Positions 4,475 through 16,025 of a stretch of DNA of 41,359 bases are shown here, piece by piece. Under the pieces are notes generated by a model. The model was given only the letters and a program-made list of their open reading frames with translations. It did no database searches and was not told the origin of the DNA. Every line of letters begins with the position of its first letter. The first letter of the stretch is position 1. The position numbers were made by a program, and so were the translations under genes. This stretch comes from Gammaproteobacteria bacterium (GTDB lineage: Bacteria; Pseudomonadota; Gammaproteobacteria; Steroidobacterales; Steroidobacteraceae), in contig DAHUXE010000134.1 of assembly GCA_027307325.1 (NCBI GenBank), positions 1 to 41,359 of the forward strand, given 5' to 3'.

Positions 4475-4491
4475 GGGGTTATGAGCGTGTG
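4475..4491 (+). repeat. Left att core (direct repeat)
   Basis: ggggttatgagcgtgtg, identical to 15503-15519. Confidence 0.88.
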
Positions 4492-4547: not shown

Positions 4548-5696
4548 TCAACCCTTCCCCGACTCGTTTGTCGTTTGTTTGTCGTTCCGGTAAGGGTTTG
4601 TGGCGTTCTCGATAGCCGCCGCCGCTGATGCGAGCGCTTCCGCAGTGGTACCGCCATAGAGCGCGAGCGTCGTAGCGTAGTCCGTGTGCCCGAGCACCCG
4701 GTGCACTACGCCCGGTGCCACCCCCGCCGAGACGAGCGCGGTCGCCGCCGTGTGCCGCAGGCAGTGAAACGGTCGCGGCGACAGGCCCGCACGCTTCAAC
4801 GCTCGGTGCCAACTCGTCGTGAAGTTCGCGGGGTCCATCGGGCGGCGACCCGATGCGGTCGCGAGCACGAAGTCCTCCGCGCGCTTGCGGGCGGCAGGCA
4901 GGCTGAGCTTGTACTGCGCGAGCGCAGCGGCGAGGGAGCTTGGAATCGCGACCGTGCGGCGACCCGCTTCAGTCTTAAGTTCCGACGTGCACTTGTCGCG
5001 ATCAGCCCACTGCTCGCGGACGTGGATCTGGCGCTGCTCAAGATCGACCGCGCCCCATTTCAGCCCCAAGATCTCGCCGCGCCTCATGCCTGTCAGTCCC
5101 GCGATCATCACCGCGACCCGCATGCGCCCCGTACAGGCTGCGAATACCTGCGGCAGCTCGTGGGGCGCGAAGGCGAGGGCACGGCGGGTGCCGATGCTCG
5201 GCTGGCGCACGGCGGCAACCGGGTTGAACGCAGCCAAGTGATCGCGCTGCGCGAAGCCATAGAGCAGCGTCAGCACCGCGAGGACTTTCTGCACCGTCGC
5301 AGCACCGTCGCCCTGCGCGAGCAGCTGATCGCGCCATTGCTCGATATGGCTCGCTTGAATCGTGACGAGCCGCGTTGTGCCCCAGCGCTTGAGGATCCTC
5401 TTCAGCGCCGATTCGTAACTGATCCTTGTCGCCGTGCGAATCTTCGCCGTGCGACGCGGCGAGTAGTCCGCCGACCGCCAAGCCTCCGCCAGCTCGCCCA
5501 GCGTAATCGTTCGCGAGTTCGCGTTGTAACGACCCTCGTGAACCTGCTGAAGGAGCTTCGGGGCCTCGTCCGCAGCCTCGCGCCGTGACTTGAAGTAGCG
5601 GACGCGCTGCTTGCCTGTACCCGGATCGCGGAACGCGATAGTGAAGTAGGTGTAGCGCTTGCCGCGCGAGGTGCGAAGGGTCTTGCGGATGTTCAT
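4548..5696 (-). CDS. int: Tyrosine-type site-specific integrase
   Basis: 382 aa; GLTGMRRGEILGLKW (Arg I), SELKTEAGRRTV (Lys), FHCLRHTAAT (HxxRH), VLGHTDYATTLALYGG (GH...Y); all catalytic boxes present. Confidence 0.95.
   Translation of the reverse strand: MNIRKTLRTSRGKRYTYFTIAFRDPGTGKQRVRYFKSRREAADEAPKLLQQVHEGRYNANSRTITLGELAEAWRSADYSPRRTAKIRTATRISYESALKRILKRWGTTRLVTIQASHIEQWRDQLLAQGDGAATVQKVLAVLTLLYGFAQRDHLAAFNPVAAVRQPSIGTRRALAFAPHELPQVFAACTGRMRVAVMIAGLTGMRRGEILGLKWGAVDLEQRQIHVREQWADRDKCTSELKTEAGRRTVAIPSSLAAALAQYKLSLPAARKRAEDFVLATASGRRPMDPANFTTSWHRALKRAGLSPRPFHCLRHTAATALVSAGVAPGVVHRVLGHTDYATTLALYGGTTAEALASAAAAIENATNPYRNDKQTTNESGKG
4565..4584 (+). repeat. Candidate integrase arm-type site, left
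   Basis: cgtttgtcgtttgtttgtcg; two TTTGTCG boxes 11 bp apart; 19/20 match to 15375-15394. Confidence 0.5.
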
Positions 5697-7411: not shown

Positions 7412-8986
7412 TTAAGGAATCCAACCCTTCAGCCTCGCATGAGCCCACGCCGCCGCGTCCCCACCTGGGGTCGAGCGGGAGGGCTCGTGATAGTCGGCGA
7501 ACGTGCCCGAGTGCGTGATGCTTGGCAGTGAACTTGGGATCAGGAACGGGTCTTCGCCTGTTTGCTCCGCCGCATCGACCATCGCCCGCAGGACTTCAGC
7601 TGCCGCGCTGCCGCGCTGCGCGAGCCAGATCGCGCCGACGACGGCATTGCTGCAGTCATCGGGCGAGCCCTTGGGGCAATCGAACGAGGAACGACCCCCA
7701 GGTTGCGCGCGGCGCTGCACGGTGCGCAGCTGGCGGATGAGGCGCGCATCATCGAGCAGATCGACGAGCCCGTTGCTGAACGTCGCGATGGCCTCCCGAT
7801 ACAGATCGCTCTTGGGGAGAGGACTGCACAGGTAGGTGATGCCGCGCACCTGCAGCGCCTCGGCAGGCCAATCGCCGCCATAGTGATCGCCCGTGACGCT
7901 CGTCAGGGCGTAGGTCCTGCACAGGCCCGCGACGCGGCTCGCCGCTTCGCCAGTCGAGAACGGCGGGCGGATGTCGAGCAGCGCGTCGACGACGATGCGA
8001 TCACGTGCTTTGTGCACAATGGCCGTCGCCCACGAGTCGCGACCGCTGCCGCCCGCAGGGTCGGTAAAGGCGTAGTAACGGCTCGACGCGCCCTCATGGT
8101 GAGCAGAGAAGGGCCGAATGGTGATGCCCACCGACACTGCGCGCGTGATCCAGCGCTCTTCGTAAGCGGCTGTCAGGTCCGTGCGGAACTCGCCGAGCCA
8201 CTCGGCACGCGCGGCTTCGGGATCCTCCGCGAGCGCGCGGTCAATCGTGCTTTGCGGGATCGTGGGGTTGAAGGTGCGGGTGGGACCCGTGATGTAGAGC
8301 GCGGGGGACTTGTTGACGGCAAAGTGGCGCGTGTGCGCTTCGCCCACGACGCCAGTCTGCAGGTAGGGCGAAGAGATCACGGCGAGAATGCCGTCGAGCG
8401 TGGCGAGACCTGGCTTCACCGCGCGAATCAGCTCGCGGTCGGGCTCGGCGGAATCGTCCTGCGGCAGGAAGGAGGCTTCGTCCACCACGACGCAACTGAA
8501 GGTGCGTCCTCGCGTGCCGCGAAAGGTCGCGGTGTGCACTTCGAAGGTGGTTTGATGCTCGCCAAACTCCAGCACATCGGCAGTCGCACGGGTGAGCGCG
8601 GCTGACATCATGGGCGAGGCCCGGGCGCACTGATACGCGTAGCCAAACAACACGCCCGCTTGCTTGCGATCTACTGCGACGCAGGCAGCGACCGCCATCT
8701 CGCCAATAGCGAGCCGCGTGCGCCAATCTTCCACGCAGCACCACAGGGCTACCCGCGAGGCAAAAAGCGACTTGCCCGAACGGCGACCGAGGATCAGGTA
8801 GATTTCGCGTGTTGGATTAGATGAGAAGCGCGTGCGCCCTGTGATTCGCTTCGCGAGCGCTAGGTCCTCGCGTGACAACAGGTGCGCATCACCATCGATC
8901 AATCGCGCGCAGACGTGCAGTGCGCGGTAGGTAGGGTCGCCGAGTGCGCCAAGCGTTGGGTCAGTTAGGAAGTCGTAGAACTTCAT
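7412..8986 (-). CDS. terL: Phage terminase large subunit (ATPase plus RNase H-fold nuclease)
   Basis: 524 aa; Walker A LGRRSGKS, Walker B CVVVDEASF, coupling motif ISSPY, nuclease acidic residues in FTDPAGG, TGDHYGGDW and GSPDDCSNA. Confidence 0.88.
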   Translation of the reverse strand: MKFYDFLTDPTLGALGDPTYRALHVCARLIDGDAHLLSREDLALAKRITGRTRFSSNPTREIYLILGRRSGKSLFASRVALWCCVEDWRTRLAIGEMAVAACVAVDRKQAGVLFGYAYQCARASPMMSAALTRATADVLEFGEHQTTFEVHTATFRGTRGRTFSCVVVDEASFLPQDDSAEPDRELIRAVKPGLATLDGILAVISSPYLQTGVVGEAHTRHFAVNKSPALYITGPTRTFNPTIPQSTIDRALAEDPEAARAEWLGEFRTDLTAAYEERWITRAVSVGITIRPFSAHHEGASSRYYAFTDPAGGSGRDSWATAIVHKARDRIVVDALLDIRPPFSTGEAASRVAGLCRTYALTSVTGDHYGGDWPAEALQVRGITYLCSPLPKSDLYREAIATFSNGLVDLLDDARLIRQLRTVQRRAQPGGRSSFDCPKGSPDDCSNAVVGAIWLAQRGSAAAEVLRAMVDAAEQTGEDPFLIPSSLPSITHSGTFADYHEPSRSTPGGDAAAWAHARLKGWIP

Positions 8987-9399
8987 TCGGGCGCCTCAGC
9001 CTCCGGCGTTGAGGCAGGCACGACTGAGCGCGCGGCGACGTAGTCACGCAGCGTCACGACTTTGCGCGCTCGACGTTCGAGGCCGAGGGTGGAGGCAAGG
9101 CGCACAAACGTCTGTAAGGTTGCGAGGTATCGAGCGAGGTCGACGTTCTCGCCCTTGGCAAGCCGTGCTTCCTCAGTAATCAGCAGTGCATCGAGGTGCG
9201 CGGTACGTTGGATCAGTCGCAGCTTCACGAAGGACAAGGGTGCGTCGCCCTGATCTGCCTTCATCTGCTCGATGGCGGCGAGCATGTGCCGCGCGTCACG
9301 GTATCGACGGTCAAGGCGAGCGAGTGCGCCCTCACTGTACTTGCGCGGCAGGTAATGCTGACGCTTCGATGTGACGCCTGATCCCTTGCCACCCATCAT
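8983..9399 (-). CDS. Probable terminase small subunit-like protein
   Basis: MMGGKGSGVTSKRQHYLPRKYSEGALARLDRRYRDARHMLAAIEQ...; position directly upstream of terL with ATGA overlap; start uncertain (ORF open to 9663). Confidence 0.5.
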   Translation of the reverse strand: MMGGKGSGVTSKRQHYLPRKYSEGALARLDRRYRDARHMLAAIEQMKADQGDAPLSFVKLRLIQRTAHLDALLITEEARLAKGENVDLARYLATLQTFVRLASTLGLERRARKVVTLRDYVAARSVVPASTPEAEAPE

Positions 9400-9467
9400 C
9401 GACCTCGCATCGGTTGTTGAGTCAACATGCACAATCTCGCAAACAAACATGAGATTCCCACCGCGCT

Positions 9468-9845
9468 TCAGCTCGTTACACGTGCCCTTCTCACTCTCAA
9501 TGAGAGGGTACGGGCTCGCGGTGTTGGTCCCGAGATCGAGCGACCATTTCCATCTCTCTCCTGCGTCGCACGTAACCACTTCATCGCCTCCTGCGGATCG
9601 AACCTCACGTGCGCCCCAAGTCGCACGCACGGGCAGTCGAGTTCGCGCGCTGCCGCGCTCCACCAGCTCGCCGCCATGCCCGTCAGTCGCCCCAGCTCCT
9701 TCGCGCTGACGAGGAGTGGCGTCGCAGCGTCCGCAGGGGGCGGGGCAGGGGGCTCGACGTGCGGCCGCCGATGGGCCTCGTACACGTCGCGGGGCAGATC
9801 GAGCACGCCCAGCGCTCCTAAGGGAATGAGCACGCGCTCAGTCAT
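9468..9845 (-). CDS. HTH / excisionase-like DNA-binding protein
   Basis: 125 aa; VSAKELGRLTGMAASWWSAAARELDCPCVRLGAHVRFDPQEAMKWL resembles an AlpA/excisionase-type HTH. Confidence 0.6.
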   Translation of the reverse strand: MTERVLIPLGALGVLDLPRDVYEAHRRPHVEPPAPPPADAATPLLVSAKELGRLTGMAASWWSAAARELDCPCVRLGAHVRFDPQEAMKWLRATQERDGNGRSISGPTPRARTLSLRVRRARVTS

Positions 9846-13314: not shown

Positions 13315-13323
13315 GGATTGCAC

Positions 13324-13677
13324 ATGGATCTGAAGCAGTTCGTTTCCATCTCTCTTCAGCAGATCGTGGCCGGTGTGGCTGAGGCGCAGAAAGCCGATCA
13401 TGGTGGCGAGGTCAATCCGACGATCTGGCGAACCGGGGACGCAGGGAAGCTCAAGATCGTGGAGTCAAACACCGGAAACTGGATTCATATGGTCGATTTC
13501 GACATTGCGGTGACCGTCGGGGAATCGACGGGAACGCAAGGGGGCATAGGACTGGTCGTCGGGCCGGTCGCTCTTGGCAGCAGAGGCCAGAGCAATGCTG
13601 AGACTTCGAGCGTTAGCCGTATCCGCTTTCAGGTTCCTGTTTCTTGGCCAACTCCCCCACCGAAGTCCGGGGCCTAA
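13324..13677 (+). CDS. Small beta-rich protein, possibly trypco2-like (Trypsin-co-occurring domain-like)
   Basis: MDLKQFVSISLQQIVAGVAEAQKADHGGEVNP...VDFDIAVTV...GGIGLVVG...SRIRFQVPVSWP; assignment from pattern resemblance only. Confidence 0.6.
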   Translation: MDLKQFVSISLQQIVAGVAEAQKADHGGEVNPTIWRTGDAGKLKIVESNTGNWIHMVDFDIAVTVGESTGTQGGIGLVVGPVALGSRGQSNAETSSVSRIRFQVPVSWPTPPPKSGA

Positions 13678-13775: not shown

Positions 13776-14939
13776 ATGACCGTCGATGAGATTATCGAAA
13801 GGTTCAAGAAGGAGCGCCTTCCACGGCTCAAGAAGAGGACGCAGGGGGATTACGGACGGCACTTCGTCCTTCTGAGCCGTGACTTCGGACAACGGCAGGC
13901 GAAGGACCTCACGTTGAAGGAACTGCAAGGATGGATGAACGTCGAGACGGGAAAGATTCAGCGAAACCGCCAAATGGCAGCCCTGTCGTCTCTCCTTGGT
14001 GCGGCGGTCAAGTGGGGTTGGCTTGACTCGAACGTCTGCAAGGAGGTTGAACGAAACAAGAGCAAAGCTCGCGAGAGGATAGTGACGGACAAAGAGTTCG
14101 CCCAGATGAAGACGTACGCTGGCAGACGGATGCCGATGGCAATGGACCTTTCACTGCTCGCCGGGCTGAAGCAGGGAGCGATACTTGAGCTCACATGGAC
14201 GCAGATTGACCGTCAGGACAACGTTATCCGCATCCGGCACCATTTAACCGGCAGACAGATTCAGATCCCAATCACTCCCGAAATAGATGCGGTGCTCGCC
14301 AAGTGCAAGGAGCTTCCTGCCAAGAAGAAGAACCTCTACGTAATACCTAACCGTCAAGGTGATGCGTACACAAGCGAAGGGTTCCGCGCGATGTGGCAAC
14401 GCGCGGTGAAACGCTACCTCAAGACCGGCAACGACCATTTTACGTTCGAAGACATCCGACAGACTTGGGCGCACAGGCAGACGCTGGAGAAACTAACGCC
14501 TACTGCGCGTCGCGGTGGCGCAGGTTTTGTTGATCAAGCTCGAATCGAAGAGCTGCGAGCGCTGCAGGGTAAGAAGCCGAATCCAACTCGCTTAACGCGA
14601 TTGTGTGAAGAAATAAATGCTTGCTACAAGAACAACTCCCTACTGGCGGTGGCACTATTGGCACGTACAGTGATCAATCATGTTCCACCGGTTTTTGGCT
14701 TCAACACCTTTAGTGAAGTGGCAAACAACTACGGCGGTGACCCGAAGACCAACAAGTCATTCAAGCAGATTGCCCGACGTTTGGAGGAGGCGGCGCGGAG
14801 TATTGGGGATAAGATTGCGCACGAAACCATGCGACCGGTCGAGTCGCTGCCATCAGCGGCGCAAGTGGACTTCAGCCCCGAATTCGACGTGCTTCTCGAA
14901 GAAGTTGCGCGGTTGCTTCGCGAGCGAACGAGCCCTTAG
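13776..14939 (+). CDS. Degenerate tyrosine-recombinase domain fused to an uncharacterised C-terminal domain
   Basis: 387 aa; N-terminal SAM-like plus catalytic fold (AMDLSLLAGLKQGAILELTW, YTSEGFRAMWQRAVK, HFTFEDIRQTWAHRQ), no GH..Y box; C-terminus RLTRLCEEINACYKNNSLLAVALLARTVINHVPPVFGFNTFSEVANNYGG...VDFSPEFDVLLEEVARLL. Confidence 0.85.
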   Translation: MTVDEIIERFKKERLPRLKKRTQGDYGRHFVLLSRDFGQRQAKDLTLKELQGWMNVETGKIQRNRQMAALSSLLGAAVKWGWLDSNVCKEVERNKSKARERIVTDKEFAQMKTYAGRRMPMAMDLSLLAGLKQGAILELTWTQIDRQDNVIRIRHHLTGRQIQIPITPEIDAVLAKCKELPAKKKNLYVIPNRQGDAYTSEGFRAMWQRAVKRYLKTGNDHFTFEDIRQTWAHRQTLEKLTPTARRGGAGFVDQARIEELRALQGKKPNPTRLTRLCEEINACYKNNSLLAVALLARTVINHVPPVFGFNTFSEVANNYGGDPKTNKSFKQIARRLEEAARSIGDKIAHETMRPVESLPSAAQVDFSPEFDVLLEEVARLLRERTSP

Positions 14940-14993
14940 GAGAGCTGAGGACTGACCCCACAAGCACGGGCGCCCGCCTCGCGTTAGGTAGCT

Positions 14994-15341
14994 ATGAATG
15001 CCGGTGCAAACCAGCGTGAGATTTTTCGGGCACAAGCCCGGCGCTCCGACCGAGCTGCGGTGCAGCGGCTCGTCGAGCGGCTGCCCGGTCCCATTCAGAG
15101 CAGTCTCAGTAGCCGCCTGCGAGACGCCAGAGGTTTTTTCGCCATGCAATACGACGCGGAGACCCGCCGTGGGTTCTGGATAGTCGCTGACGTTAAGATT
15201 GTGCTGGTGCTTACGATCACGGAGGTCGCCGATGAAGAGGAAGCCGCAGCCATTTGGATAGCCATCGAGGAGCAGGAAGCAGAAAGCGATCCAGACAAAA
15301 TCATCGCCATCCTGGGGGCGAAGAAGGTCACTCGAAACTGA
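14994..15341 (+). CDS. Hypothetical protein
   Basis: 115 aa; ...YDAETRRGFWIVADVKIVLVLTITEVADEEEAAAIWIAIEEQEAESDPDKIIAILGAKKV; protein-like composition, start uncertain. Confidence 0.45.
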   Translation: MNAGANQREIFRAQARRSDRAAVQRLVERLPGPIQSSLSSRLRDARGFFAMQYDAETRRGFWIVADVKIVLVLTITEVADEEEAAAIWIAIEEQEAESDPDKIIAILGAKKVTRN

Positions 15342-15374
15342 CCGGCCCCCCTCGCCGACGAAGGTGACTGCGCA

Positions 15375-15394
15375 CGTTTGTCGATTGTTTGTCG
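15375..15394 (+). repeat. Candidate integrase arm-type site, right
   Basis: cgtttgtcgattgtttgtcg; two TTTGTCG boxes 11 bp apart. Confidence 0.5.
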
Positions 15395-15502
15395 AGAGCT
15401 GCGTCAGGCTGCGTCTCTCGACGTAACGGGCACGCAACGTAACCTACGGAAAAGACAAGGGGCGTAACCCCGCGTCAAGCAGCGTCACGCCCCGGTCTGT
15501 CG

Positions 15503-15519
15503 GGGGTTATGAGCGTGTG
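15503..15519 (+). repeat. Right att core (direct repeat)
   Basis: ggggttatgagcgtgtg, identical to 4475-4491. Confidence 0.88.
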
Positions 15520-15572
15520 CAACACTAGCGGCCACGCGCGGCGGAACGCGCGGATCTTCGGGGGATGCGGCC

Positions 15573-16025
15573 GTGGCGGGACTGTACTTCGAGGAGTTCG
15601 AACCGGGACAGCGCTTCGAGCATGCGGTGCGACGCACCGTAACCGAGGCCGACAACGTGCTCTTCAGCACGCTCACCATGAACCCGGCGGCCATCCATCT
15701 CGACGCCGAGTACGCGCGCGGGACGCCCTTCGGCGTGCCGCTGGTCAACAGCGTGTTCACGCTCGGGCTGCTGGTCGGGCTTTCGGTCTACGACACCACC
15801 TTCGGCACCACCATCGGCAACCTCGGGTTCGAGGAGGTGCGCTTCCCGAAGCCGGTGCTGCCGGGCGACACGCTGCGCGCGGCGACCACGGTAGTTTCCA
15901 AGCGCGAGAGCCAGTCGCGCCAGGATTCCGGCATCGTGGTGTTCGAGCATCGTGCCTTCAATCAACGCAACGAGGAGGTCGCTTCGTGCCGCCGCGCGGC
16001 ACTCATGCTGAAGCGGCCGGCGTGA
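15573..16025 (+). CDS. MaoC-family dehydratase
   Basis: 150 aa; hot-dog fold [41 protein letters not shown]. Confidence 0.9.

Follow-up and report, generated by a model that had tools for sequence, protein, structure and literature searches.

A dead lambda-type tyrosine recombinase joined to a widespread, uncharacterised C-terminal domain in a satellite-like element of a gammaproteobacterium

The locus described here raises the question of what a tyrosine recombinase is kept for once its active site has gone and a foreign domain follows it in the same protein. The gene lies on contig DAHUXE010000134.1 of a bacterium assigned to the Steroidobacteraceae (Gammaproteobacteria), and the whole stretch of 41,359 nucleotides that was analysed is referred to below as the window. 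An initial annotation, made from the sequence alone, had read the gene as a phage-type tyrosine recombinase of about 240 residues, with an eroded active site, fused to an unrelated and uncharacterised domain. Its coordinates and translation were verified, and the gene is a single intact open reading frame, with 389 codons open in frame in the host assembly. Its parts are as follows.

13776–14939, plus strand: pseudo-recombinase and C-terminal domain in a single open reading frame of 387 amino acids (continuous open frame, host assembly)
13776–14480, plus strand: residues 1–235, lambda-type tyrosine recombinase with core-binding domain and truncated catalytic domain, without box III or Tyr (PF00589, phrog_1, AF2, Foldseek)
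14169–14171, plus strand: codon 132, catalytic Arg-I position, here Lys (Arg in 28 of 28 aligned integrases)
14244–14246, plus strand: codon 157, catalytic beta-hairpin Lys position, here Leu (Lys in about 96% of relatives)
14448–14459, plus strand: box II, EDIR, with Glu at the His position and Arg-II kept (alignment to relatives)
14481–14525, plus strand: linker or fusion junction (integrase similarity stops at about residue 235, the C-terminal domain family begins at about 251)
14526–14936, plus strand: all-helical C-terminal domain of an unnamed family, with invariant R297, H302, P304, P305 and H349 (full-protein numbering)

The two halves can be matched separately. In a search of 296 genomes from the order, the top matches to integrases end at residues 228–244, and residues 250–382 are matched at 44% by one different protein; the open reading frame therefore consists of two domains joined at about residues 235–250. 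No second full-length copy of the gene is present in the host assembly, where a weak partial match is to an intact integrase nearby (30% over residues 103–213), and no close relative of the full architecture was found in searches that included viral contigs.

The first half is a phage-type tyrosine recombinase, as had been proposed. PF00589 (Pfam Phage_integrase) matches residues 118–234 at 6.7e-11, the phrog_1 integrase family matches residues 1–232 at 1e-33, and a PDB sequence search with the fusion protein gave lambda integrase at 4.6e-9. With the AF2 model of residues 1–250 (pLDDT 90.6), Foldseek also gave lambda Int (E 1.3e-10, TM 0.75), and the phage repressors MrpR (SPbeta) and SroF (phi3T) were among the matches. 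The core-binding domain and the topology of the catalytic domain are present, the latter over its first two-thirds, while the final helices carrying box III and the Tyr are gone. The same truncation is seen on the phrog_1 profile, of which the fusion protein covers positions 164–403, versus a reach to position 456 by the intact integrase.

The claim that the active site is eroded also held, although one of the substitutions cited for it does not bear that weight. Arg-I is replaced by Lys, as annotated, and the hairpin Lys by Leu, and neither the Gly-His of box III nor the Tyr nucleophile is found in the fusion protein, so that it cannot recombine DNA. The change of the box II His to Glu is real, but since members of the subfamily (28 viral integrases) may have H, N, R, K or E there, it is not diagnostic of a dead site. 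A frameshifted integrase C-terminus, which the annotation had itself raised against its reading, was ruled out, as no displaced box III or Tyr remnant occurs in any frame of 14301–15600.

Outside the active site the recombinase half is a typical member of its family in an alignment with 28 viral integrases, the closest viral relative used (L125) being 38% identical. Compared with 25 non-redundant relatives it keeps 8 of the 13 most conserved columns, which is below every one of them, and 25 of the 33 columns in the next conservation class, which is an ordinary rate. The losses at columns conserved in at least 85% (P87V, Y102I, A126S, R132K, D135A, K157L and P182A) cluster on the catalytic columns R132, D135 and K157, plus P87 and Y102. 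An N-terminal part that runs for 240 codons without a stop and keeps its fold, with its active site destroyed, is the pattern expected if the recombinase had been retained for binding only.

The second half has no match in Pfam, NCBIfam, PADLOC or the PDB by sequence searches. When a six-sequence alignment was used as the query for a scan of 84,980 genomes, 97 relatives were found, of which 80 were kept, and viral contigs yielded 10 more. The family spans more than 15 phyla, among them Pseudomonadota, Bacteroidota, Chloroflexota, Cyanobacteriota, Acidobacteriota and several Patescibacteria. The search with this domain alone, which had been suggested as a check, returned about 100 relatives with varied partners; in nearly all of them the domain forms the C-terminus of the protein, and the N-terminal half varies between families. 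The family was rightly called uncharacterised, but the description of its members as stand-alone proteins does not stand, as they are rarely so and the domain usually follows another N-terminal domain. In the 58 members scanned for N-terminal partners, recombinase domains were found in two and a homing-endonuclease-associated repeat in one, and most matched nothing; by eye, some of the N-termini resemble zinc ribbons or winged helices.

Residues R47, H52, P54, P55 and H99 (domain numbering) are invariant in the family, with the limit that the first four lie within the search pattern and their invariance is biased accordingly, while H99 lies outside it. The R-x4-H-x-PP and D-x3-H motifs are both present in the fusion protein (R297, H302, P304, P305, D345 and H349), and its C-terminal domain is all helical in the AF2 model (pLDDT 95.4). 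This domain keeps 18 of the 19 most conserved columns in spite of its long branch (length 1.46, median 0.46) in a tree that is poorly resolved and does not fix its position, and so is not a dead remnant. With the catalytic columns lost and those of the C-terminal domain kept, the fusion gene is, judged from its sequence, a remodelled gene and not a pseudogene. A mixed full-length alignment misplaced integrase tails onto the C-terminal domain and was discarded.

The annotation had also proposed an effector or regulatory domain, in a cargo slot where defence genes often sit; our comparisons did not establish either an effector function or an anti-phage role. No PADLOC model matches the fusion protein at E<=1, and its relatives give weak and scattered matches. 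Across the loci compared there is no conserved operon partner, bar near-copies and a small Patescibacteria subgroup, and the neighbours of about 100 relatives are mixed, including some that belong to defence (HamB, SoFic, methyltransferases) and many that are housekeeping genes. As both kinds of gene occur near the relatives, an anti-phage role of the fusion gene is possible. Small genes lie directly upstream of the C-domain gene in several loci (L052, 5174–5659; L071, 5181–5669; L073, 5181–5669; L111, 3082–3570; L044, 5205–5663; L032, 1418–1999), and the proteins encoded downstream of them have N-termini of winged-helix-like appearance. The small genes of L052, L071, L073 and L111, which come from Patescibacteria and a viral contig, form one cluster, and this hints at a two-gene module in this subgroup. 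On a Methylobacter plasmid, a DUF3644 gene (L024, 2299–3381) adjoins the C-domain gene.

The C-terminal domain is modelled as an alpha-helical bundle, which may be HEPN-like. No Foldseek match had an E-value below 0.4; the highest TM-scores among the matches listed were to the HEPN protein 2HSB (0.57/0.61, E = 2.3), and AbiV and other HEPN entries were also among them. The spacing in the family is R-x7-H, in place of the Rx4–6H of the HEPN catalytic motif. The profile comparison with DUF4145 was not accepted as proof of HEPN homology, as hhalign gave P of 0.01–0.02 and a reversed DUF4145 alignment scored equally, though the aligned motifs are similar (RSIGDKIAH against RVIGNEAVH). Since the Foldseek matches are not significant and the profile does no better than its reversed control, we treat the HEPN-like assignment as a lead and not as a result. 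The domain can be compared with the HEPN superfamily (AF_0298, PDB 2HSB; AbiV, 9BJ7; HepT) and DUF4145 in its all-helical fold and its conserved R-x7-H motif, but has no significant Foldseek E-value, no Pfam match and no profile score above the reversed control.

A recombinase was found ahead of the same domain in two further proteins, from Thiobacillus sp. 0-1251 (L093, where the gene is on an 859-kb contig) and from a Cycloclasticus MAG (L077), which make up two of the 90-odd relatives and are 34% identical to each other over 407 amino acids. As in the fusion protein, a dead tyrosine recombinase precedes the domain, but here the recombinase part is of the integron-integrase or Xer-like kind (TIGR02249, best match 4e-34) and extends through the Tyr region. 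Relative to IntI4, L077 has Asp for Arg-I, Lys for His-II and Ile for His-III, L093 has Glu, Arg and Leu at these positions, and in both a Tyr is still present. Pairwise BLAST found no similarity between their recombinase part and the N-terminal part of the fusion protein, and comparison of profiles for the two kinds gave a general fold relationship only. The three recombinase fusions occupy three places in the poorly resolved tree of the C-terminal domain, which requires no more than two origins. This is therefore a recurrent architecture, and, as read from their catalytic residues, dead recombinases of two different kinds are joined to one C-terminal domain.

The fusion gene is part of a region of about 11 kb that is bracketed by a pair of 17-bp direct repeats, a feature absent from the initial annotation.

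4475–4491, no strand: left copy of the 17-bp direct repeat, GGGGTTATGAGCGTGTG, a putative att site
4548–5696, minus strand: the element's own tyrosine integrase, intact, with its R, K, HxxR, GH and Y boxes
15503–15519, no strand: right 17-bp direct repeat GGGGTTATGAGCGTGTG, putative att, 564 bp past the end of the fusion gene

Within the repeats the intact integrase lies at the left end, as the annotation had stated, and genes resembling a large terminase subunit and a primase are present together with small regulators. Next to the right repeat come the fusion gene and neighbours without assigned function, which agrees with the earlier placement in an end or cargo slot, and third-position GC in these genes is 0.58–0.78 versus 0.91 in a chromosomal gene. 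A nucleotide search found no similar element in the phage collection. It is reasonable to regard the element as satellite-like, with accessory genes at one end, and the presence of an intact integrase and a flanking repeat suggests that it integrates without need for the fusion protein. The terminase-large-like gene (7412–8986; phrog_9, 7e-17) is followed by a 226-aa open reading frame (8983–9663) in the position of a small terminase; this arrangement in an element of only 11 kb is unusual for a satellite, which would be expected to borrow its packaging functions. Upstream of the fusion gene, a 119-aa open reading frame (13318–13677) is matched by nothing in Pfam, NCBIfam, PADLOC or PHROG, and the one relative found is on a plasmid; we take it to resemble Trypco2-type conflict-system proteins, and found no sign of a functional pairing with the fusion gene.

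We lean, with modest confidence, towards the fusion protein being a pseudo-recombinase that binds DNA and either positions a new, possibly HEPN-like domain or is itself controlled by it. The recombinase part, keeping the core-binding domain of lambda Int and most of the catalytic fold, would no longer cut DNA but would still bind a specific core-type site, for example an att-like site or an operator belonging to the element, to its helper or to a competing phage. The C-terminal domain would act at or away from that site, through RNA cleavage, oligomerisation or the binding of a partner. If so, the N-terminal module would set what is sensed, with a C-terminal module constant across the family, and the gene would be accessory cargo for regulation or for interference with other phages rather than for integration. 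Counted against DNA binding is the loss of part of the recombinase C-terminal helices, and against the reading as a whole the lack of a close relative of the full architecture, the weak HEPN-like assignment and the lack of a conserved partner gene. A bolder version is speculative and rather unlikely: that a constant C-terminal effector is aimed by interchangeable sensor or DNA-binding modules, two kinds of dead recombinase having been recruited for targeting, so that mobile elements could recognise rivals by their integration sites and act against them.

The protein could instead regulate the element, or act as its immunity repressor, in the manner of MrpR, its C-terminal domain serving only for oligomerisation or signal input and having no toxin or nuclease activity. 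MrpR represses SPbeta though most of its catalytic residues are missing (PMC10516654), both it and SroF are among the fold matches, and a helical bundle would suit such a domain. We nevertheless regard this as possible but doubtful, for the gene is at the cargo end by the right repeat, away from the replication genes, the C-terminal domain is found as well in proteins with no obvious phage or satellite setting, and MrpR keeps its Tyr and has no extra domain of this kind reported. It is somewhat less probable that the fusion is an evolutionary accident, in which a decaying second integrase was joined by deletion to a neighbouring gene and now rides passively on an active C-terminal domain. The truncation does coincide with the start of that domain, and the long branch fits as well, but 240 codons without a stop, ordinary rates at non-catalytic columns and the presence, in two further genera, of another kind of dead recombinase ahead of this domain argue otherwise.

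A misjoining of two genes during assembly might be suspected, as the host assembly is a fragmented, metagenome-type one of 199 contigs and the identical architecture was not found elsewhere. The junction, however, is in frame, in a linker and exactly at the domain boundary of the family, the integrase half carries active-site substitutions not expected of a misjoined intact integrase, the element ends are coherent and analogous fusions exist; a chimera is thus very improbable. That the protein still recombines or inverts DNA through a modified active site, the C-terminal domain taking the place of the usual tail, is scarcely credible: Arg-II is retained and changes at His-II are tolerated in relatives, but this is contradicted by the missing nucleophile, the missing box III and the replacement of Arg-I and the hairpin Lys.

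The preferred reading, of a dead recombinase retained for binding DNA, draws attention to the C-terminal domain itself. An uncharacterised domain found in more than 15 phyla and fused to dead recombinases of two kinds is worth characterising. These fusions hint at site-specific action on DNA by some members of the family and point to candidate sites, att-like cores, that are directly testable.

To our knowledge few recombinases in bacteria have become DNA-binding proteins, MrpR being the characterised case. In the open-access literature searched, we found no report of a fusion between a tyrosine recombinase and a HEPN or defence domain. MrpR (YopR; PDB 8A0A), the master repressor of the SPbeta prophage, combines a tyrosine-recombinase fold and DNA binding with the loss of recombinase function (PMC10516654), and by analogy with it the earlier suggestion of a recombinase scaffold serving as a DNA-recognition module is supported. 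MrpR and SroF of phi3T (PDB 9RD5/9RGL) resemble the fusion protein in carrying this fold, with catalytic residues lost, in a phage-type element, but their catalytic domain is full-length, with the Tyr, and they are not reported to carry an additional domain at the C-terminus. The match of MrpR to the fusion protein is of remote fold only (TM 0.41/0.33), and the PDB sequence search lists lambda Int and no relationship to MrpR. With lambda-type phage integrases (PF00589, phrog_1) the protein shares the core-binding domain and the catalytic domain as far as it extends, unlike them in having no Arg-I, hairpin Lys, box III or Tyr and in its added foreign domain. In animals, the Crypton-derived DUF3504 proteins (KCTD1, ZMYM2-4, QRICH1 and WOC) contain a domesticated tyrosine-recombinase domain that has lost the catalytic tetrad and is combined with other domains, and many of these proteins are transcription regulators (PMC3212892); unlike the present protein they are eukaryotic, have unrelated partner domains and arose independently. 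The dead recombinase as a DNA-binding module is thus known, and what is new is its joining to a widespread domain absent from Pfam, NCBIfam, PADLOC and PDB sequences. The occurrence of this domain on a different disabled recombinase in two other bacteria suggests that recombinases no longer able to cut DNA are put to new use as targeting modules.
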